DNA from: an uncultured Bacilli bacterium
GTDB taxonomy: Bacteria; Bacillota_I; Bacilli_A; RF39; UBA660
Reading direction: 5' to 3'
Assembly (NCBI GenBank): GCA_947601485.1
Contig: CANQGF010000009.1
Location: 1 to 33,408, forward strand
DNA: 33,408 nucleotides
Translations under genes and position numbers: made by a program
The notes under the pieces: model-generated
What the model was told of the DNA's origin: nothing
Databases searched by the model: none
What the model saw: only the letters and a program-made list of their open reading frames with translations
Part shown: in pieces, positions 4,568-30,867 of the stretch
Numbering within the stretch: the stretch's first letter is position 1
Layout: each line of letters opens with the position of its first letter

Positions 4568-6449
4568 TTAACCTTTAGTGGCAGCCTTATAACATTCTAG
4601 AGAGTTACCACTCCCAGAATACGTAGACCATCCAGAAGGACAATAATAGGAACGTTCGGAATTAGAAGAAACAGATCCGGACTTTTTGCAACTCGCCGTG
4701 CAATTATTTTTACTATGAATCCAGCGTTCGCCAGTCAGTTCACAAAGATAACCATATCCGAAATAACCAGTGCTCTTCAAGGCATAGCTAGCAACATAAT
4801 CATCACTATTCCAATAAGATTCTGTACATTTACGAATTCCTTTCATTGTCAAGCAATCATAGTCTTCTCCATTCTCGTTATAAGCTCTCCTTTCGAATCT
4901 TCCTTCAGATCTAAGAATTCTCTCTTCTTCCCCAAGAGTATCATAAATAGGGTAATATTCAAAGAAAGCACCCACATAATAGAAATCGTCCTCGATCTCG
5001 ATATTAGAGCATTCTTGAGGTTCTCCTTCACAAGCGTTTTCAGCGGAAGATCTAGAATTATATTTTTGAGAGCTATTAAAACTACAAGTATAATATGTAG
5101 TTGTATTATACCATCCTTGACTTGACGCAGATGCATTACATATATATCCTCCAGAGGATGAGCCTTTCGTTGCATCGTATACTCTTGTTCCTATTGAACA
5201 ACTATATGCTGCTTCTGTACTTTGAGTTGTACTTACACTATTTGTTGATACTCTTCCTGATGCATCTGTTACTCTTCCTTCGATAGTATATGAAGTATTA
5301 TCATTTAATCCTGTTACTTTGCAATTACCATTTGTATCTTGTTGATACCATGTACTTTGAGTAGTAGCTTTACATTCATATTTGACTATACCACTTCCTG
5401 TATTTCCATCTGTACCTTCTACTTTGACTGTTATACTACTTGTATCTTTACTTTTATATGTTACTTTACTTACACTTGGATTTGTTAAATCCAAGAATAT
5501 ACTATCTGTTGCTTTCCCTGATACATTATTCGCATTATCTCTTACAAAGGCATTATATGTTTTTTCTCCTTCACTACTTGGTAAGGTTATACTCGGCGTT
5601 GTTGTTGCACTCTTCCATTCAGTTGAAGAACATGTTGCATTTGTTGTTATACAATAATCTTTTATATCACTACCTAATGTTAATGTTACTCCTACTCCAA
5701 CGACTTGACTATAATCTTCATTTAGATTAGATCCTCCAGTTGTCTTTCCCATTATAGAAAATGTTGGTACTCCTGGTGCAGTTCTATCTACTGTTATTGT
5801 TTTCTTTGATATATCTGTAGTACTTGATACATTTTGGGCTTTATCTTTTAAATAGACATATATTGTATGAGCTCCATCTGTACTTGTAAATGTATTATTT
5901 TTTACTGTTATACTTTGTAATCCACCTGTCTCTACCCATGTTTGATCACAACTTGTAGCATTAGTAGTTAGACAATAATGGGTTACATCAGTATCTAACC
6001 ATTCTACCTTATATGTTACTTCATTATTATATGTATAGCCATTTGTTAAATCAGCTCCACTTGCATCTTTTCCTGTTATACTAAAACTTGTTACTACTGG
6101 CACATCATCATCTTTTGCAAAATACAAATCACAATATTTTGTGGCATTTGTTTCAATTATTATTTTACCATCACTTGCTTGAGATAATCCACTTGTTGTT
6201 ACTGGTTTCCCTTCATAATCATAACATTTAGTTTCTTCTAAATTTAATAGATAACCCTTGGTTGGGAAAGTTGGTTCATTAGATAACACATACCCCCCCC
6301 CGAGTCTCTTCTTTATATATAGCAAATTTACTATATTCTTTTTCTTCTTTTATTACTTTTACTTCTTGTTTTGTATTTGGTTTTACTATTACAAACACAC
6401 TTAATATTATTAGTACAATTAAACTTATTTTAATATAATTATTTTTCAT
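4568..6449 (-). CDS. Surface protein A: N-terminal anchor, Ig-like/FN3 domains, Cys-rich C-terminal domain; reading frame interrupted at a G9 tract (phase-OFF as assembled)
   Basis: ATG at 6449 encodes MKNNYIKISLIVLIILSVFVIVKPNTKQEVKVIKEEKEYSKFAIYKEETRGG, which leaves frame at the G9 tract (6293-6301); the track ORF 4568..6325 (MLYIKKRLGGGYVLSNEPTFPTKGYLLN...) holds the rest. Paralogue 6659..8221 has the equivalent uninterrupted segment FAIYKQDASGNYVISSDTSFPTKGYLLN. Confidence 0.8.
6293..6301 (-). repeat. Poly-G (G9 on coding strand) homopolymer, candidate phase-variation tract
   Basis: Plus strand reads acaTACCCCCCCCCGAGTCTC; G9 puts the upstream frame into an early TAA (TRGGVCVI*), G8 restores KEETRGGYVLSNEP. 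Confidence 0.75.
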
Positions 6450-6658: not shown

Positions 6659-8221
6659 TTAGCCTTTAGTAGCAGCTCGATAACATTGAAGAGAACTATC
6701 ACTTCCAGAATATATAGACCAACCAGGAGGACAATAGAAATTATTTTCTGTTTTGGCAAAGACGTTCCCGTTGCTTCTACATGCCGAAAGGCAACTAGGA
6801 TTTCCCGGGAAAGTGTCTCCTGTCAATGAACACTCGAACATCTCACCTCTTTTTAAAAATATCCCGATTTCACAACTCGATCTACACCACTCTTCATCCC
6901 CTTGGCTAATGACATCTCTTAAATACGGTCCCTGGTCAATCCCGCATATATCCTCACTTCCGAACAAGCATCTCGTTGAGTAACCTAGATTCTCGCAGTT
7001 TTTTACGGCCTCTGACCTACTTTCACCCCCGCATCCCACTTCAGAGTCAGGAAGAAACACGTATCCAATCTTCCCATTACTTGAGCAAGTGCCCTGTAAC
7101 ACATTCTCACAAGCAGACTTCGCCTCCGATTCGGAATCATATCGCGAACCATCAATTCCATCGCATGTCCAGTACGTTGTCATATTATTCCATCCTTTGC
7201 TCGATGCACTTGTTTTACAGATATATCCTCCAGAAGATGATCCTTTTTGAGAATCTTGTATCATTTCTTCTCCTGCTGAACAACTATATGCTGCTTCTGT
7301 ACTTTGGGTTGTACTTACACTATTCGTTGATACTCTTCCTGATGCATCTGTTACTCTTCCTTCTATGGTATATGAAGTATTATCACTTAAATCTGTTACT
7401 TTGCAATTACCACTTGAATCTTGAGGAAACCAAGTACTTTGGCTTGTGGCTTTGCATTCATATTTAACTATGCCACTTCCATTTGGTGTATCACTTCCTG
7501 TTACATTTACTGTTATACTACTTGTATCTTTACTTACATATGTTACATTACTTACTGTTGGATTATTTAAGTCTAATGTTATTGATGCTTCTTTACCTAC
7601 TGATATATTATTCGCTCTATCTTTGATAAAGGCATATCTTGTTTTCTTACCTTCTGTACTATCTAGCACTGGTTCTGTTGGACTTACACTTGTACCACTT
7701 ACATTTACCCAACTTCCATTACATAAACTTTGACTTGTACTTATACAATAACTTACGACATCACTCGCTGTCCATCCTATGTTATATGTTACATTTGTTT
7801 TGTGTGTATAACCACTATTCAATGTTTCATTATTTTCTTTGGTTCCGGTTATACTGAATGTAGTTACTACTGGAGCATCATCATCTTTGGTAAAGTATAA
7901 ATCACAATATGATGCTTGAGTAGCTTGCAATGTTATTTTACCATCTAAACTTTGACTTACTATATCATTAGATATTCCATTATTATTAGAATCAAAACAT
8001 TTAGTTTTTTCTAGATTTAATAAATATCCTTTAGTGGGAAATGATGTATCACTAGATATTACATAATTACCTGATGCATCTTGTTTATAAATAGCAAAAC
8101 TTTTTATTTCTTTTGCTTCATTAATAACATTAACTTCTTGTTTTTTATTAGGTTTAATTATTACAAACATTGTTAATACTATTAACAACACAAGTGTTAA
8201 ATACATATACTTTTTCTTCAT
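6659..8221 (-). CDS. Surface protein B: paralogue of A with N-terminal anchor, Ig-like/FN3 domains and a different Cys-rich C-terminal domain
   Basis: MKKKYMYLTLVLLIVLTMFVIIKPNKKQEV anchor; near-identical SITV.V.G.D...GSGIVKYECKAT.QSTW FN3-like block; shared ending YCP.GWS.YSGS..SL.CY.AATKG. Confidence 0.85.
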   Translation of the reverse strand: MKKKYMYLTLVLLIVLTMFVIIKPNKKQEVNVINEAKEIKSFAIYKQDASGNYVISSDTSFPTKGYLLNLEKTKCFDSNNNGISNDIVSQSLDGKITLQATQASYCDLYFTKDDDAPVVTTFSITGTKENNETLNSGYTHKTNVTYNIGWTASDVVSYCISTSQSLCNGSWVNVSGTSVSPTEPVLDSTEGKKTRYAFIKDRANNISVGKEASITLDLNNPTVSNVTYVSKDTSSITVNVTGSDTPNGSGIVKYECKATSQSTWFPQDSSGNCKVTDLSDNTSYTIEGRVTDASGRVSTNSVSTTQSTEAAYSCSAGEEMIQDSQKGSSSGGYICKTSASSKGWNNMTTYWTCDGIDGSRYDSESEAKSACENVLQGTCSSNGKIGYVFLPDSEVGCGGESRSEAVKNCENLGYSTRCLFGSEDICGIDQGPYLRDVISQGDEEWCRSSCEIGIFLKRGEMFECSLTGDTFPGNPSCLSACRSNGNVFAKTENNFYCPPGWSIYSGSDSSLQCYRAATKG

Positions 8222-14690: not shown

Positions 14691-17600
14691 TTAATTTTTG
14701 ATTCTTACTCTACGACGGACATTAATTCTTTCCATTATATCTTTATAAATAAGATGAATACAGATATTTTTTTCATAATAATTAACAGAGCTAAAATCTA
14801 TTTCATCTACTACATCTTCAAATGAAGGAAGCTCATATTTATATGTATTATAATCACTTACTATAATAAAAATGGATTGTAAATCAAATTTTACAATTTT
14901 TTTCTCTTGATCTTGTACTATTCTAAAATTTTTCAAGATATTTGCTAAATACTCTTCCCCATTTTCAATTAGGGCATCTTCTTTAATACATATTGAAAGT
15001 ATTTTATCAGTATTAAAAGCATCGTTATCAATATATTGTATAGTTGAAGGAATATAAACTTCAGTAATATCTTGAGTACTAAAAACATTTCCGTCTATTG
15101 TTATAAGTCCATCATTTAAATAAACATGATTAAGAGGTACATCAATTCGACCAGTAATTTTTCTTAAACTTTTAGGCATCGCTAATATTTTTTTAGTAGC
15201 ATTCTTTTTAATATAATTAGCTAGATCAATATCTCTATCTTCAAATGGTGAACCTGTACCTATAACTGAAGAAACTTCAGAAATTTTATAAATATCTTTT
15301 ATTGATTTTATTCCTTCAGGTATCAAAAATCTATTTGAGTCCTGTGCATGATTTATATATATATAATAAAATTCAACTAAACTTTTAGGAATATTAAATA
15401 CTTGATCTTGATAAACAAAACTAATATCTTCTTTTAAAATATGAAATCTTTTAAATAATAAAGCACTTCCTAAAGTAAAGTAATTTCGATCATAAGTAAA
15501 TATTCCTTCACCAGAAAGATCCTCTTTATCGCTAATTTTAAGACCATTTTGAACAGTAATATTTTCAAATAAATTATAAAGGCTATGTTTTCCTGATTCT
15601 GTTTTATAAGTGAAATCATATTGTGATATGGCATTTAAAAAATTTAATAAAAAGAAATTATTTAAAACTTCTTGGCTATCTTTAAAAACTTCATTGTAAA
15701 AACCAATTATTCGATTATAATCTATTTTTAGTAGCCCCAAATGTCTATGAGAAGATACAATCTTTTCATGAACTATCATTTCATAATATTCTTTTTCTTT
15801 ATCATCCTCTATTTTGTCATAAAATAAATCAATAAAACCATTATTAGATAGCGTTAATGCATTATATTTTAAATTATATAAATTATAAAAATCATTATCA
15901 TCTATAGCCATATCTTCTATTTTAGAAAAATATTTTTTTTCATAAACACAACCATTAGAAAAATCAAAGTGTTCATTAAATTCTTTTGGTATATAAGCAC
16001 TATTTTTAAATTCTAATACTAAATCATTTATTTCTTTTAATAAGTCATCTTTAATTTCATAATAAAATTTCTTTTGGGTAAGTAAGGTTAATTTATGCTT
16101 TAATTTTTCTTTTTCTATTCTGTATTTACCATAATTATTTTTAATAAATTCATCTAAAGTTTTTTCTGTTTCACTAACCTTATTTAGTAACATCTCTACT
16201 TTAGCAATAACATCATTTCTTATTTTATCATCATTAAAATCCCAATCATCATATGACATTTCCTCTATCTCTTCCGAAATATTAAATATTTGTAACATTA
16301 CTTTCAAATTTTTAAATCTTGATAATAATTTAATATAAATTTCTCTAAAAATAACAAAGTAAAAACCTGCAAAAACATTGTTGTGATAGTCTTTTTTATT
16401 AAACGATGAAATTGATATATCTATATTCATATCCAAGACATCATAGTGAAAAGTAATATACTGTAAAAGTGAATGAGTAATCCCCTTATTTTCAACAAAA
16501 TTACCCATAAACATTTCATCACCTAACTCTACAAATTTAGAAAAACTTATATTATTAAAAGTTATTAATTTAAGAGTGCTATAATCAAAGGCAAACCTAT
16601 CAATATATTCTATTGTACTAGGGATTGTTATATTATAAAACTTTTGATTATAAAAAGCTTTACATCCTAATTGTTTTAAACCTTCATTTAAAATGATATT
16701 ATTAGTTTGACAATCATCAGAAAAGAGTGGAAAATAAACATCCTCTAAACTACTTGGGAAATAGACAATTTTATCATTAGCGTCTTTATCAATATTATTT
16801 AATAATTTTTCTATTTTTGGGTCACTATAATAATTGCTTTTATCAATGCTTTTTATGCCCTCTGGTAAATTATATATAGCATTTTTTTGTCCCTTTGTAA
16901 GGTACAATTTGTAAAAATCATTATATAAATTTTTTATAATGGTGGCATTTTCAACTTTAATAGATTTATCAAATAATAATTTTAAAGGTAAAAAATCTTT
17001 AAAAAAGAAATATGTTTCAAGTGGAATGGTGTTATTCAGGGTAAAGACACCATTAAAGTTAGTTGCTATACAAAAAATATCTGAACTAATTTTATAATTA
17101 TCATAAAATGAAGATAATTCACCCTTATCTAATGCTAATAATAAATTTAATAAATACTTATTTTCTAATATTTCTTCATAACTTATTTCGTTATTACCAT
17201 ATTTTAATCCATCAATTAATAAAGAAACAGCTTTTTCAATATCGCCTTTAAATAATTCATTAAAATATTCATTTCTTCCTAGTATTATGTTTTGAATCAT
17301 ACTGAATATGATATTTTGATAATATTCTAATTCTAATTTATCTGTATCTTTGTTAACAAATGTTTCAACTATTCCATCTTTGCTTATGGAAAGAGCACTA
17401 AATTTTAAATTATAAATATTTGTTAAATCACTTTCATCTATGGCAATATCTCCATATTCTTGATATTCCCGATATTCATAAAAGACACGATATTTTATTT
17501 CAATTTCTTCAATTTTTTTCAATAATTCATCCTTATGTTCTATATCAAAAGGAATTTTTAATAAGTTATTTATTTCATTATTTTTACTTTCTTCAGTTAT

Positions 17601-18341
17601 TTCAACTTTATGAATATATGTATATTCCTCTAATTGCTTTTCAACTGATGCTAAATCACTTAATATATAATTAACATCTGTTCTAACATTAATTTGTGAA
17701 TTATTATCTAATATTTGTTGTAACCAATTTAAGTGCTTTATCTTTTCATCTATTATTTCGTATTCTTTTTCCTTTTCTTCTTTACTTGGTTCAGAGTTAT
17801 ATTTACTTTCACTTTTATATCTTTCAATATTAGTTATAATACTTACTTCTATAGAATATAAAGTATTTAATGATAAACATAATCTATTTATTATATTATC
17901 AATGGCTTCTTTTTTCTTTTTACTTAAAAATAATTCTTTTCTTATTTCACTTATGGCTAGTAATCTTCCGATTACTTCATTTTGTAAAGTGTTAATATCA
18001 TTTTTATATAAATCTAACTTTTCACTATTTATTAAATAATTAATTCTATCTTCAACACTTTTTTCTTTTATTCCAGCTTCTTTTATAGAAATATTAAATA
18101 ATAGTTCAATAGTCATTTTAATATGATTATTAAGTACATCAGCTTCTAAAATTAAAGTATCATAATCTTTCATAGTTGATAAAATACTACTATACTCATT
18201 CTTATAGTAATCTACTAAACTATCGTTATTAAATTCTTTTCTTTTTGGTATTTTAATTATATCAAGAGGGCGTACTAATTCTGCATTAGTATTTATTTTA
18301 TGATGTTTAAATAACTTTTTTATTAATTCAATTAAATTCAT
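14691..18341 (-). CDS. 1216-aa protein with internally duplicated modules and LRR_5 (BspA-like) segments, no signal peptide; function unknown
   Basis: NIILNEGLKQLGCKAFYNQKFYNITIPSTIEYIDRFAF and HVYLNDGLITIDGNVFSTQDITEVYIPSTIQYIDNDAF; duplicated A.D..DL.N.YNLK..ALS.S..G blocks. Confidence 0.65.
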   Translation of the reverse strand: MNLIELIKKLFKHHKINTNAELVRPLDIIKIPKRKEFNNDSLVDYYKNEYSSILSTMKDYDTLILEADVLNNHIKMTIELLFNISIKEAGIKEKSVEDRINYLINSEKLDLYKNDINTLQNEVIGRLLAISEIRKELFLSKKKKEAIDNIINRLCLSLNTLYSIEVSIITNIERYKSESKYNSEPSKEEKEKEYEIIDEKIKHLNWLQQILDNNSQINVRTDVNYILSDLASVEKQLEEYTYIHKVEITEESKNNEINNLLKIPFDIEHKDELLKKIEEIEIKYRVFYEYREYQEYGDIAIDESDLTNIYNLKFSALSISKDGIVETFVNKDTDKLELEYYQNIIFSMIQNIILGRNEYFNELFKGDIEKAVSLLIDGLKYGNNEISYEEILENKYLLNLLLALDKGELSSFYDNYKISSDIFCIATNFNGVFTLNNTIPLETYFFFKDFLPLKLLFDKSIKVENATIIKNLYNDFYKLYLTKGQKNAIYNLPEGIKSIDKSNYYSDPKIEKLLNNIDKDANDKIVYFPSSLEDVYFPLFSDDCQTNNIILNEGLKQLGCKAFYNQKFYNITIPSTIEYIDRFAFDYSTLKLITFNNISFSKFVELGDEMFMGNFVENKGITHSLLQYITFHYDVLDMNIDISISSFNKKDYHNNVFAGFYFVIFREIYIKLLSRFKNLKVMLQIFNISEEIEEMSYDDWDFNDDKIRNDVIAKVEMLLNKVSETEKTLDEFIKNNYGKYRIEKEKLKHKLTLLTQKKFYYEIKDDLLKEINDLVLEFKNSAYIPKEFNEHFDFSNGCVYEKKYFSKIEDMAIDDNDFYNLYNLKYNALTLSNNGFIDLFYDKIEDDKEKEYYEMIVHEKIVSSHRHLGLLKIDYNRIIGFYNEVFKDSQEVLNNFFLLNFLNAISQYDFTYKTESGKHSLYNLFENITVQNGLKISDKEDLSGEGIFTYDRNYFTLGSALLFKRFHILKEDISFVYQDQVFNIPKSLVEFYYIYINHAQDSNRFLIPEGIKSIKDIYKISEVSSVIGTGSPFEDRDIDLANYIKKNATKKILAMPKSLRKITGRIDVPLNHVYLNDGLITIDGNVFSTQDITEVYIPSTIQYIDNDAFNTDKILSICIKEDALIENGEEYLANILKNFRIVQDQEKKIVKFDLQSIFIIVSDYNTYKYELPSFEDVVDEIDFSSVNYYEKNICIHLIYKDIMERINVRRRVRIKN

Positions 18342-24849: not shown

Positions 24850-27666
24850 TTAACTTTCCTTATCAAAGATTTTTTTTAAAAATTGACCTGTATAAGATTT
24901 TTCTACTTTACTAACTTCTTTTGGTGTACCAGTGGCAATAACTTCACCGCCAAATCTTCCACCTTCAGGGCCAAGATCAATAACATAATCAGCTTGTTTG
25001 ATAACATCTAAATTATGTTCAATAACAATTACTGTATCGCCATTATCAACAATACGATTTAATACCACCAATAATTTTTTAATATCATCAGAATGAAGTC
25101 CAGTAGTTGGTTCATCTAAAATAAATACTGATTTTCCTGTTGCTTTTTTTTGTAACTCTTTAGCAAGTTTAACTCTTCCAGCTTCACCACCGGATAAAGT
25201 AGGAGCTCCTTGACCTAGCTTAATATAAGATAAACCAACATCTTTCATTACTTGTAATTTATCACGAACTTTAGGAATATTTTCAAAAAATGGAATAGCT
25301 TCATTAACTCGCATATCAAGTATTTCAGAAATATTTTTTCCTTTAAATTTAACATCTAAAGTTTCTTTATTAAAGCGCGTTCCTCCACAAACATCACATG
25401 GAACATACACATCTGGTAAAAAATGCATTTCTATTTTCTTAACACCATCGCCAAAGCAAGCTTCACATCTTCCTCCTTTAACGTTAAAAGAGAATCTACT
25501 TTTATCATAACCACGCATTTTGGATTCTTTCATATTAGCAAAAACATCACGTATATCATCAAATACTCCAACATAAGTTGCAGGATTACTTCTTGGTGTT
25601 CTTCCAATAGCGTCTTGACTAATATTTACTACTTTATCAACATTTTCCATTCCTTTAATAGATTTGCATTTTCCAGGAATATCTTTAGAATTATAAATTT
25701 CTTTATGTAGTGTTTTATATAATATTTCATTAACTAAAGTAGATTTTCCACTTCCGGAAACACCTGTTACTACTATAAATTTATTTAAAGGAAATTTAAC
25801 ATTAATATTTTTTAAATTATTTTCACTAGCGCCTTTAACTTCTAAAAATAAACCATTTCCTTTACGCGTTTTTTTAGGTATTTCAATTTTCTCTTTACCT
25901 GATAAATAACGTCCCGTAATACTATTTTCATTTTGCATAACTTCTTCTGGAGTACCAGCAGCCACTATATAGCCACCTTCATCACCTGCTCCAGGACCAA
26001 CATCTACTAAATAATCCGCTGCTAACATAGTATCAGTATCATGTTCAACAACAATAAGGGTATTACCTAAATCACGCATTTCTTTTAAAGAATTTATTAA
26101 TTTTTCATTATCTCTTTGATGCAGACCAATCGAAGGCTCATCTAAAACATATAAAACGCCTGATAAACGACTACCAATTTGTGTTGCAAGTCTAATTCTT
26201 TGGGCTTCACCACCTGAAAGAGTCGCAGCACTTCTTGCTAAAGTTAAATAATTAAGTCCAACATTCATTAAAAAGTGAAGTCTTGATAATATTTCTTTAA
26301 GAAGTAAACGGCTAATTTCTTCCTCTTCTTTTGTTAGTTTTAAATTTTCTAAAAAAGTAATTAGCTCATCGATTGCCATTTCACATAAGTCATAAATACT
26401 TTTTTTATTAACTTTAACTGCTAAAATCTCATCTTTCAATCTTGTACCATGACATTTAGGACAAATGGATTCAATCATATAACCTTCAATCCATTCTCTA
26501 ATCCATGAACTATTAGTTTCTAAATATCTTCTTTCTAAATTATTTATTATTCCTTCATATCTCGATTTAGTATCTCTTGTACTTCCATTCTTCGCTGTAT
26601 AATGAAAATCCATAATATCTTTAGTACCATATAATATGATATCTAAATCACTTCTTTTCATATCTTTAACTGGGACATCTAAATCGATATTATAATGTTC
26701 TGCAACGGTTTTAAGACTACTCATATACATTGTATTATCTAGATTAATTGCCACAATAGCGCCTTTATTAATACTTTTATTTTTATCAGGAATTAGTAAG
26801 TCTTCACTTATTTTTAATCTTGTTCCAAGCCCCTTACATTCTTCACATGCACCATAAGGTGAGTTAAAAGAAAATATTCTTGGTTCAAGTTCACTTAAAG
26901 AAAAATTACAATAAGGACAAGCATAATTTTCACTCATCAAAATATCTTCTTCATCATTAACTCTAATGATAACAAGACCATTAGCCATTTTACAACTTGT
27001 TTCTATAGCTTCAAAAATTCGACTTCTCTCATCACTAGAAACTGGTAATTTATCTATTAAAACATAAATATCATCTTTAACATTTTTTTCAAGTGTTATT
27101 TCATCGGCTGCATTATACATAACGCCATTAACTTTAATTTTAGTAAACCCCTTACCTCTTAAATCATCAATTAAATCTTTATGAGTTCCTTTTTCTCCTC
27201 TTACAACAGGAGCAAATATTTCAATTTTAACTCCTTCATCAAAAGCCAATACTTTATTAGTCATTTCTTCTATACTTTGACTTTTAATAGGTATTTTATG
27301 TGTCGGACAATAAGGTATCCCAATTCGCGAAAACAAAAGTCGTAAATAATCATACAATTCAGTTATAGTACCCACTGTTGAACGAGGATTTTTATTAGTT
27401 GTTTTTTGATCAATAGATATACTTGGAGATAACCCTTCAATAGAGTCAACATCTGGCTTTTCACCACCACCAATAAATTGTCTCGCATAAGCTGAAAGAC
27501 TTTCCACATATCTTCTTTCCCCTTCAGCATAAATTGTATCAAAAGCTAAACTACTTTTACCACTACCAGAAACTCCAGTCATAACAATCAATTTATTTTT
27601 AGGTAATTCTAAATCAACATTTTTTAAATTATTTTCTCTTGCTCCCCTAATTACAATTTTATCCAT
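24850..27666 (-). CDS. uvrA: Excinuclease ABC subunit A
   Basis: MDKIVIRGARENNLKNVDLELPKNKLIVMTGVSGSGKSSLAFDTIYAEGERRYVESLSAYARQF; two ABC cassettes and zinc fingers; start MDK (27666) preferred. Confidence 0.97.
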   Translation of the reverse strand: MDKIVIRGARENNLKNVDLELPKNKLIVMTGVSGSGKSSLAFDTIYAEGERRYVESLSAYARQFIGGGEKPDVDSIEGLSPSISIDQKTTNKNPRSTVGTITELYDYLRLLFSRIGIPYCPTHKIPIKSQSIEEMTNKVLAFDEGVKIEIFAPVVRGEKGTHKDLIDDLRGKGFTKIKVNGVMYNAADEITLEKNVKDDIYVLIDKLPVSSDERSRIFEAIETSCKMANGLVIIRVNDEEDILMSENYACPYCNFSLSELEPRIFSFNSPYGACEECKGLGTRLKISEDLLIPDKNKSINKGAIVAINLDNTMYMSSLKTVAEHYNIDLDVPVKDMKRSDLDIILYGTKDIMDFHYTAKNGSTRDTKSRYEGIINNLERRYLETNSSWIREWIEGYMIESICPKCHGTRLKDEILAVKVNKKSIYDLCEMAIDELITFLENLKLTKEEEEISRLLLKEILSRLHFLMNVGLNYLTLARSAATLSGGEAQRIRLATQIGSRLSGVLYVLDEPSIGLHQRDNEKLINSLKEMRDLGNTLIVVEHDTDTMLAADYLVDVGPGAGDEGGYIVAAGTPEEVMQNENSITGRYLSGKEKIEIPKKTRKGNGLFLEVKGASENNLKNINVKFPLNKFIVVTGVSGSGKSTLVNEILYKTLHKEIYNSKDIPGKCKSIKGMENVDKVVNISQDAIGRTPRSNPATYVGVFDDIRDVFANMKESKMRGYDKSRFSFNVKGGRCEACFGDGVKKIEMHFLPDVYVPCDVCGGTRFNKETLDVKFKGKNISEILDMRVNEAIPFFENIPKVRDKLQVMKDVGLSYIKLGQGAPTLSGGEAGRVKLAKELQKKATGKSVFILDEPTTGLHSDDIKKLLVVLNRIVDNGDTVIVIEHNLDVIKQADYVIDLGPEGGRFGGEVIATGTPKEVSKVEKSYTGQFLKKIFDKES

Positions 27667-27769
27667 ACTATCACCAACTTCTAATATTTTATCCACTCTT
27701 TTTAAAATATGCAAGCACTTATACTATATCAAACATAAGTATGTTTTGCAATACTTTTTATTTATAAAT

Positions 27770-27800
27770 CTAAAAAGGCACTCACAAGTGAGGCCTTTTG
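27770..27800 (-). terminator. Intrinsic terminator downstream of the sigma-like gene
   Basis: Minus strand AAAAGGCCTCAC-TT-GTGAGTGCCTTTTTAG. Confidence 0.6.
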
Positions 27801-27853: not shown

Positions 27854-29743
27854 CTATTTAATTTTTCTTTTTAATATGTCTTGACCCACATTATCTACTT
27901 TAAATATCGAACTATGATATTCTTTTATCGTTTCATTACAAAAATTTTTAAATTCTTGTTCATTAGAAAGTTTTCTATTTACTATATCTTTTAAATTATC
28001 TAAAATTTTTATAACTTCATCAATAGTTAAATTTAATAGTTTAGCATAATCCTCTATAGCATAATTAATTTCATCAAATAAATATAATTGATAAATTTTT
28101 AATTCTTTATCGTTTAAATCATCCCGTACATACATATATTTTAAGATATCTAAAGGAGTTAAAGGATCAATTTTTAATCTTAAAAAGTCATCTTGGTATT
28201 CTGACTTAAGGCTTTCTATATTAGAATCAATCTGATTACTATCAAATAAATCATAAACTTTTTTTAAAATACTATGAAAATAAATCTTAACATTACTTGA
28301 TAAGACATCCATTTCTTTAGCTAATTCAGTATAACTTTTAGGATTATTACTTAACACAATATTATATAATAAATAATATTGCATATTGGTAAGAAATATT
28401 TTTAAAAAGACACATAAATCAATTTTTCTATTTTCATCAATACTACCAGATGGATCAGTATAATAACTTTGTATTTTTTGAAAAATTAACATTTTTTTAC
28501 TTTTTATATTTGGAACGTTACTATTTTCAACTGACTCTATTAATGGATTATTATCAAATTCAATTAATTTAAAAATTGAAGTCCCATTTTTGGCCATGGT
28601 TTCTTTTTTAAAATTAACAAAATCTGTTTCATTTTCTTTAATTCCTAATAATTTCTTTTCTAATGATTTTTTTATATTTTGTAATTCATTATATGATATA
28701 TTCATTTTTGAACATAAATCTATATCTGAGTAATAAGCTTCACCAAAATAAATTAATCTATATAATATATCTTCCAATTTAGATAAATCATTTTTAAGAT
28801 AATAGTACTTTATAATATCTAATGGCTCAATCGGTTCTATTTTTAATTTATTAATGTTATGATATTTTTGTTTTAATTCATCTAATGTTTTTTTAAATAA
28901 CCAACTATCATCGCTTAAACATTGTTTTATTTTTTCAGATGCCCTTTTTTTCTTAACTCTAATCCCTTCTCTTGTTATATTTAACATTTTAGATAATTTA
29001 TCTAGTGTTTGATGATCATCAGATAATACCAAATGATAAATAATATAATAAAGTGAAGGTTCTAAAACATTTTTTAAAACTAAAATTAAATCATGATCAT
29101 ATAAATGATTAACAATTTGTTCTTCATCTACACTATTTTCATCTGGGATAAAATCCTCTACTTCATCGCCATTTAAAAACTCATCATTATAAGGTTCATT
29201 AATACTTATAGAATTTTCAATTAAAGCACCTTTAATTTCCATAAGTCTTTCCTTACTAATATTTAAAAGCTTACATACTTCACTATCATTTGGTAAAGGT
29301 TTCTTTAATTCTTTATAAGAATTTATTAAAGATTTATAATCACTAACTAAATATTGAAGTCTTTTGGGAATTCTAATATCTTTTTCTACATTATTATAGG
29401 CAATTAATATTTTTTGAGTAATCCAATTAGTAGCGTAAGTCGTAAAAGCTCCTAAATCAGGATTATATGTTTCACAAGCTCTCATTAACCCTATGTTACC
29501 TTCTTGAACTAAATCTAATATTTTTAAATGACTACATCTTTCAGCATATTTTCTTGCAATACTAACTACTAATCTTAAATTACAGTTAATTAATTTTTCA
29601 TAATCACCACGTATAGCTAACTCTTTTTGTTCTTCAACACTTAAATTAGGAAATTTGCTTATTTCATGGCAATACATTTTATAAGAGTCATCATTATAAT
29701 AAGTTGTAAAATCTAAACTTTCATCATTCATACTAAACACCAA
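27854..29743 (-). CDS. Sigma-70-like RNA polymerase sigma factor with a duplicated C-terminal module
   Basis: Sigma region 1.2/2 motifs LVVSIARKYAERCSHLKILDLVQEGNIGLMRACETYNPDLGAFTTYATNWITQKI; HTH-like TLDKLSKMLNITREGIRVKKKRASEKIKQCL; second C-terminal copy of about 170 aa. Confidence 0.8.
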   Translation of the reverse strand: MVFSMNDESLDFTTYYNDDSYKMYCHEISKFPNLSVEEQKELAIRGDYEKLINCNLRLVVSIARKYAERCSHLKILDLVQEGNIGLMRACETYNPDLGAFTTYATNWITQKILIAYNNVEKDIRIPKRLQYLVSDYKSLINSYKELKKPLPNDSEVCKLLNISKERLMEIKGALIENSISINEPYNDEFLNGDEVEDFIPDENSVDEEQIVNHLYDHDLILVLKNVLEPSLYYIIYHLVLSDDHQTLDKLSKMLNITREGIRVKKKRASEKIKQCLSDDSWLFKKTLDELKQKYHNINKLKIEPIEPLDIIKYYYLKNDLSKLEDILYRLIYFGEAYYSDIDLCSKMNISYNELQNIKKSLEKKLLGIKENETDFVNFKKETMAKNGTSIFKLIEFDNNPLIESVENSNVPNIKSKKMLIFQKIQSYYTDPSGSIDENRKIDLCVFLKIFLTNMQYYLLYNIVLSNNPKSYTELAKEMDVLSSNVKIYFHSILKKVYDLFDSNQIDSNIESLKSEYQDDFLRLKIDPLTPLDILKYMYVRDDLNDKELKIYQLYLFDEINYAIEDYAKLLNLTIDEVIKILDNLKDIVNRKLSNEQEFKNFCNETIKEYHSSIFKVDNVGQDILKRKIK

Positions 29744-29816
29744 GCTTTTTTATTATATAATATATTTATTGAAAAAAATAGAATCAAATTCTCATTTCCT
29801 TTAATTTTTTTATTAA

Positions 29817-29862: not shown

Positions 29863-30867
29863 TTAACATATATCAGCAGTTGATGAAGCATTTAAATCTA
29901 AACCAGTAAAATCACCATTTAAATATAAAGGATAAGCTGCCGCTCCAATCATCGCCGCATTATCAGTACAATAAATAAACTCTGGTAACTGAAGTTCTGC
30001 ATCATATTTTTCACATAACTTTCTAATTTCTTCTCTTAAATATTTATTTGCAGATACACCACCAGCAATAATTACATTTTTAATATCAGTTTCAAGTAAA
30101 GCTTTTTCTAATTTTCTGGTTAACTCTTCAACTGCTGCGGTTTGAAAAGAACAAGCTAAATCAGCTTTATTAATTTCATTACCTTTTTGTTTTTCTTTAT
30201 TTACTAAATTAATAACACTACTTTTAAGACCACTATAACTAAAATTATAAGTATCATCATTAGCCATTTTAGGTAATTTATAGTTATTAGATCCTTCTTT
30301 AGCTAATTTTTCAATATTAGGGCCACCTGGATATTTTAAACCAATTACTCTAGCTACTTTATCGAAAGCTTCACCTATCGCATCATCTTGTGTTTCGCCA
30401 AGTTTAGTAAATTCATAATCATCTGTCATTTTAATAAGTTCAGTATGACCACCACTTATAATCAAAGCTAATGCTGGATACTTCATTTTATCCCCAATTT
30501 TATTGGCATATATATGACCGATTAAATGATTAACTTTAATTAAAGGTAAATCATAAACATAAGACAAAACTTTAGCAAATTCGACTCCAACCAATAAAGA
30601 ACCTAATAATCCAGGAGCGTAAGTAACCGCAATGGCGTCACAATCACTAACTTTCATATGTGCTTTATTAAGCGTTTCTTCTAAAACCATTGTAATGTTT
30701 TCTGTATGCATTCTTGAAGCTATTTCGGGAACAACACCACCATAATTAGCATGGGTATCCATTTGACTCAAAATAGTAAGAGCAACTACTTCAATTCCAT
30801 TTTTAACTATCGCTATACTTGTTTCGTCACAAGAAGTTTCAATACTCAATATATTTATATCTTTCAT
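29863..30867 (-). CDS. tsaD: tRNA N6-adenosine threonylcarbamoyltransferase TsaD
   Basis: LSIETSCDETSIAIVKNG, HLIGHIYAN, ISGGHTEL, GGVSANKYLR. Confidence 0.97.
   Translation of the reverse strand: MKDINILSIETSCDETSIAIVKNGIEVVALTILSQMDTHANYGGVVPEIASRMHTENITMVLEETLNKAHMKVSDCDAIAVTYAPGLLGSLLVGVEFAKVLSYVYDLPLIKVNHLIGHIYANKIGDKMKYPALALIISGGHTELIKMTDDYEFTKLGETQDDAIGEAFDKVARVIGLKYPGGPNIEKLAKEGSNNYKLPKMANDDTYNFSYSGLKSSVINLVNKEKQKGNEINKADLACSFQTAAVEELTRKLEKALLETDIKNVIIAGGVSANKYLREEIRKLCEKYDAELQLPEFIYCTDNAAMIGAAAYPLYLNGDFTGLDLNASSTADIC

Follow-up and report, generated by a model that had tools for sequence, protein, structure and literature searches.

Introduction

Sigma factors are usually viewed as combining one reader of the -10 element with one reader of the -35 element, and the locus described here raises the question of what a sigma factor might do with further copies of the second reader, region 4 (sigma4). 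The locus lies within a stretch of 33,408 nucleotides from an uncultured Bacilli bacterium, analysed at its full length (the window), in which a preliminary description had recognised a sigma-70-like factor with a duplicated C-terminal module of about 170 aa. Were a family with many sigma4 copies to be conserved, it would demonstrate that the domain is able to multiply into an array; a holoenzyme with multiple sigma4 units raises the question of promoter choice, and such genes would mean that transcription control has expanded unusually in gut genomes of small size (about 1.4 Mb).

Results

Gene and sigma core

The gene is flanked by tsaD (29863-30867) and uvrA (24850-27714), and the following features were assigned to it and to the N-terminal part of its product:

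27854..29743, minus strand: intact open reading frame for the sigma-70-like protein (629 aa with TTG 29743 as start)
29759..29787, minus strand: candidate sigma-A-type promoter, TTGATT-N17-TATATT; weak, shuffled sequence giving equally many matches
27772..27799, minus strand: probable intrinsic terminator, AAAAGGC CTCAC TT GTGAG T GCCTTTTT, read by eye
29405..29689, minus strand: sigma regions 1.2-2, aa 19-113 (Pfam Sigma70_r2, E=5.3e-15; alignment to own RpoD)
29099..29371, minus strand: region 3 and the acidic region-3.2 finger, aa 125-215 (alignment to RpoD, same spacing)

Judging from these neighbouring signals the gene is probably a single transcription unit with its own promoter, its terminator having been missed by a terminator scanner because of a bulge. 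The likelier start is ATG 29731, four codons inside the TTG and preceded by GGTG, which would yield a protein of 625 aa. Examined by eye, the upstream regions of the family's sigma genes have no unusual motif in common, and their -10 boxes are ordinary and often extended.

The assignment to the sigma-70 family holds, with regions 1.2, 2, 3/3.2 and 4 all present in the intact reading frame, which scores 76.3 bits against the sigma70-ECF superfamily model TIGR02937 (cut-off 42.9). Homology to sigma-70 spans aa 17-275, which align to the RpoD of the same genome from region 1.2 through regions 2, 3 and 3.2 to the end of region 4. Among the Pfam models, that of region 2 is matched well above its cut-off (55.4 bits versus 24) and region 1.2 at E=0.0012, with a weak match for region 3 (E=0.51) and one for region 4 that falls slightly below the cut-off (21.8 versus 24.1 bits); the presence of region 4 at its canonical position is established by comparison with the sigma4 of RpoD (hhalign probability 97%, E=1e-11) and by the TIGR02937 match. 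The core-binding motif D77-x-x-Q80-E81-G82-N is retained, D77, Q80, E81 and G82 being invariant or nearly so across the family alignment, as are the melting aromatics (F/Y/W) in the window protein, save that the first residue of the WW pair is replaced by N. In its first sigma4 the recognition helix has the sequence TREGIR, where RpoD has TRERIR. Both profile searches and the best PDB relatives place the protein with SigA and RpoS, and from its sequence the sigma core together with the first sigma4 unit looks functional. It is not the primary (group 1) sigma factor, scoring 119.7 bits against the RpoD equivalog cut-off of 354; a separate housekeeping RpoD of 369 aa, whose existence the preliminary description had proposed to check, is encoded elsewhere in the genome.

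Four sigma4-like units and their duplication

Beyond the sigma core, self-alignment and domain searches divide the remainder of the protein into two modules, each consisting of an A and a B unit:

28559..29080, minus strand: module 1 (A1+B1), aa 222-395 (self-alignment)
27890..28408, minus strand: module 2 (A2+B2), aa 446-618 (self-alignment)
28925..29095, minus strand: sigma4 unit A1 in the canonical position, aa 217-273, with the -35 motif TREGIR retained (HMM, hhalign, AF2)
28652..28819, minus strand: sigma4-like unit B1, aa 309-364 (HMM, hhalign 89% versus A1, AF2)
28253..28420, minus strand: sigma4-like unit A2, aa 442-497, a copy of A1 without the -35 residues (HMM, hhalign, AF2)
27992..28150, minus strand: sigma4-like unit B2, aa 532-584, net charge -4 (HMM, self-alignment, AF2)

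The two modules are 31% identical over 176 columns (blastp E=1e-21), and their Smith-Waterman score of 226 lies 21 SD above that of 1000 shuffles (45.8 +/- 8.5, maximum 92); the duplication in the C-terminal half, as originally noticed, is real and far beyond chance. What requires revision is the description of the module as region 4 plus an extension, since the extension is itself sigma4-like and each module contains two units.

These units were delineated with an HMM started from canonical sigma4 sequences, which was then iterated on family proteins of one genus. Because the model had been iterated on the same proteins, reversed and shuffled controls were run, and at i-E<1e-3 the HMM gave 147 hits in real sequences and none in either control; applied to proteins of other genera outside its training set, it again places the units at the same positions. 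By profile comparison A2 matches A1 with 98.9% probability (hhalign, E=1e-17), but RpoD directly with only 2%, so that its identity as sigma4 rests on A1. The AF2 model (mean pLDDT 81) likewise shows two related halves, as the preliminary description had anticipated, with one helix series occurring four times. Module 2 is modelled as confidently as module 1, at a pLDDT of mostly about 90-95, and has therefore retained its hydrophobic pattern; values below 50 are confined to the two ends, residues 121-123, the region-3.2 finger (186-191) and the linker (397-412). The model is confident for each domain, with an unreliable domain arrangement (pTM 0.39), and because of this uncertainty Foldseek searches with whole models added little on the array, yielding only sigma chains at low TM among the matches listed. 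Taken together, the HMM, the profile comparisons and the AF2 model agree on four sigma4 units, of which B1, A2 and B2, as shown by the alignments and predicted structures, arose through duplication of an A+B pair.

The intact first and degenerate second helix-turn-helix reported at the outset are also evident. A1 alone retains the R-E-x-x-R contacts of -35 reading, which are missing from the recognition helices of B1, A2 and B2, and the net charges of these three units are -2, +1 and -4, respectively. Sub-threshold Pfam matches of the window protein to UBR4, the MTR4 stalk and IF2_N were dismissed as chance.

Distribution of the family

The same genome encodes a relative of 1197 aa, which has its first 400 aa in common with the window protein (38% identity) and has about ten sigma4 units, including weaker ones; seven are detected by HMM at i-E<0.01, one extra unit scores above the Pfam region 4 cut-off, and the AF2 model is confident (82.8). 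Such sigma genes occur in 7 of 38 genomes of the genus, and a family-wide sample gave convincing matches in 19 of 386 genomes from 12 genera, mostly of about 410 or 1200 aa. Proteins with the same plan thus fall into length classes of about 410, 630-690 and 1200 aa scattered over at least 12 genera, the named relatives belonging to uncultured Bacilli and Tenericutes and to Candidatus Coprovivens excrementavium; the group probably falls within GTDB order RF39. The doubled module is common to the window protein and two proteins of the same genus, L036 (690 aa) and L037 (672 aa), and the four-unit form was seen only in these three. Samples at the level of order, class and phylum gave no convincing match outside one family of uncultured gut Bacilli, the three weak matches found there (E 2e-8 to 7e-6) including two with in-frame stops. 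A pattern scan of a collection of genome contigs gave no match with the window protein, and when the better-conserved units were aligned and used instead, 18 named loci were obtained. Phage records, among the matches listed, match the generic sigma core only. Among the adjoining genes examined, none that encodes an anti-sigma factor or partner recurs consistently beside the family's sigma genes.

Selection and divergence

Selection could be gauged on one close pair of long forms, module 2 of the window protein being without a close relative, and in this pair dN/dS is 0.31 overall, mostly 0.17-0.41 across the array segments, 0.61 in unit 2 and 0.57 in the sigma core. Units 6, 9, 10 and 11 of the long-form arrays are about as conserved as regions 1.2-2. 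The long-form arrays, whose conservation equals that of the sigma core, are under purifying selection.

At the uvrA-side locus, by comparison, the sigma gene is only 32-55% identical among five species in which the adjoining uvrA is 90-97% identical, and RpoD averages 91% identity across the genus. Gene lengths at this locus are 396 (with an in-frame stop), 431, 629, 690 and 449+672+1052 aa. The family is maintained, but its uvrA-side locus is evolving rapidly, with recombination among copies weakly suggested as a cause; the high divergence of the window sigma factor could also mean weak constraint. A module tree gave no clear origin for module 2; in it, L036's second module groups with the first module of a tandem gene from another genome, both on long branches.

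Discussion

In its N-terminal part the window protein resembles group 2/3 sigma-70 factors (SigA/RpoS-like), with regions 1.2, 2, 3 and 3.2 and one sigma4 in order and no region 1.1. Whereas these end after a single sigma4 (~280-330 aa), the window protein adds three sigma4-like units, such that its total of four departs from the single-sigma4 plan. Nor does it follow the plan of ECF (group 4) factors, which are without regions 1.2 and 3, since it has a region 1.2 match and a region 3/3.2 segment. ECF41-like factors carry a fused C-terminal regulatory domain (PMC3426412) and are comparable as sigma factors with a C-terminal extension that may regulate in cis, but in their case the fused domain is not derived from sigma4, whereas here it consists of sigma4 copies. 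Another large protein with a sigma-70 core is MzaA, from the MZA anti-phage system (NF041931 / PDLC02203), but the match is limited to that core (101.6 bits versus an equivalog cut-off of 800) and does not extend to the remainder of the protein. Finally, phage D5-like transcriptional regulators (phrog_323) are matched over about 230 positions by the array of the 1197-aa paralogue; this match does not include a sigma core, and the window protein's own array falls below threshold.

Neither Pfam nor NCBIfam holds a model describing a sigma4 array as such, and in the full-text literature searched, outside which most subscription papers and preprints lie, we found neither a description of multiple, duplicated or tandem region 4 nor a sigma subfamily with such a plan. 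The architecture, initially described as unfamiliar, is new within the sigma-70 family, and not a new kind of system.

With middling confidence, drawing on sequence, predicted structure and analogy, we propose that the protein is an alternative sigma factor, its activity being modulated by the sigma4 array fused to it. Its N-terminal 275 aa would bind the RNA polymerase core and open the -10 element, with unit A1 reading the -35 element. Units B1, A2 and B2 would act mainly as a fused regulatory array, which, by analogy with the fused C-terminal domains of ECF41 factors, may restrain or free A1/region 2 or engage a partner. Regulation or scaffolding is suggested for the window protein, rather than DNA reading, because its additional units have lost the -35 contacts and carry little positive charge (-2/+1/-4). 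In relatives of ~1200 aa the array may also touch DNA, which is plausible because at least two of the extra units there, 6 and 9, still have basic recognition helices that are conserved. More tentatively, the family may represent a lineage-specific 'poly-sigma4' class of 2 to about 10 units that either reads an extended promoter or regulates, with the window protein as a four-unit member.

Alternatively, the array could be a DNA reader whose successive sigma4 units contact elements upstream of the -35 element, giving a very long promoter. The basic helices of units 6 and 9 in the ~1200-aa relatives (SNIITxGIRKIDxYR and SIxRRYxRAI) match the sigma core in conservation, and several units of the 1197-aa paralogue contribute to its phrog_323 match (E=4e-6), which is consistent with such a role. 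However, this match may reflect HTH similarity only, and in the window protein itself the extra recognition helices have no R-E-x-x-R contacts and B1 and B2 are acidic, and this explanation seems less likely than a regulatory array. Still less probable is that recombination between tandem sigma genes left the second half behind as a by-product, now decaying and with no function of its own. The variable gene lengths and the in-frame stop at the uvrA-side locus, the clustering of L036 module 2 with a module 1 from another genome's tandem gene on long branches, and the loss of the -35 residues from module 2 could all be accommodated in this way, but all 629 codons are in an unbroken frame, and module 2 keeps its hydrophobic pattern and its modelling confidence.

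Phage anti-sigma factors such as T4 AsiA target region 4, an established phage target (PMC2988021, PMC6755090), and the array could in principle serve as a decoy for such sigma4-binding proteins. A decoy role would explain the fast divergence of the sigma gene, which far exceeds that of the adjoining uvrA at a conserved locus, and its patchy presence (7/38 genus genomes, with tandem copies). Yet defence-system models match only the generic sigma core, and the one measurable pair, of long forms, is under purifying and not diversifying selection, leaving this explanation with very low probability.

Additional observations

Further sigma-like proteins were encountered in the course of this work. 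The genome of the window encodes a third non-RpoD sigma-like protein of 378 aa with two sigma4-like units (contig C44, L006:6034-7167, plus strand). A second group of oversized sigma-70 proteins, in relatives from the genus (L060:2755-8304, minus strand; L054:1422-6482, plus strand; L057:3564-6986, plus strand), combines an N-terminal extension of ~200 aa with a sigma core and C-terminal extensions to a total of up to 1850 aa, the L060 protein having at least nine sigma4-like units. Sigma reading frames of 600-1400 aa occur in many other genera of the family. L115:4689-7622 (minus strand; identical to L135) encodes 978 aa with about nine sigma4-like units and no sigma region 2; no sigma core was found upstream in three frames, and it could represent either a free-standing array or a gene that has been truncated. 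L052:1342-2646 (plus strand) encodes 435 aa with sigma4-like units and no sigma core, adjoining a 950-aa sigma gene.

Small proteins recurring near the sigma genes (L005:1808-2383 and L005:6014-6727, both plus strand; clusters c3 and c5, with five and four members) are without a convincing Pfam match and are possible partners. Within the window, 4568-6325 and 6659-8221 (both minus strand) encode related tandem proteins with cysteine-rich C-terminal ends in common, a secretion signal being seen in the latter, and in L049 and L054 signal-anchored proteins akin to them lie close to oversized sigma genes. The window also encodes, at 14691-18341 (minus strand), a protein of 1216 aa that contains BspA-type leucine-rich repeats (LRR_5, E=9e-12) and in which a secretion signal is not obvious.
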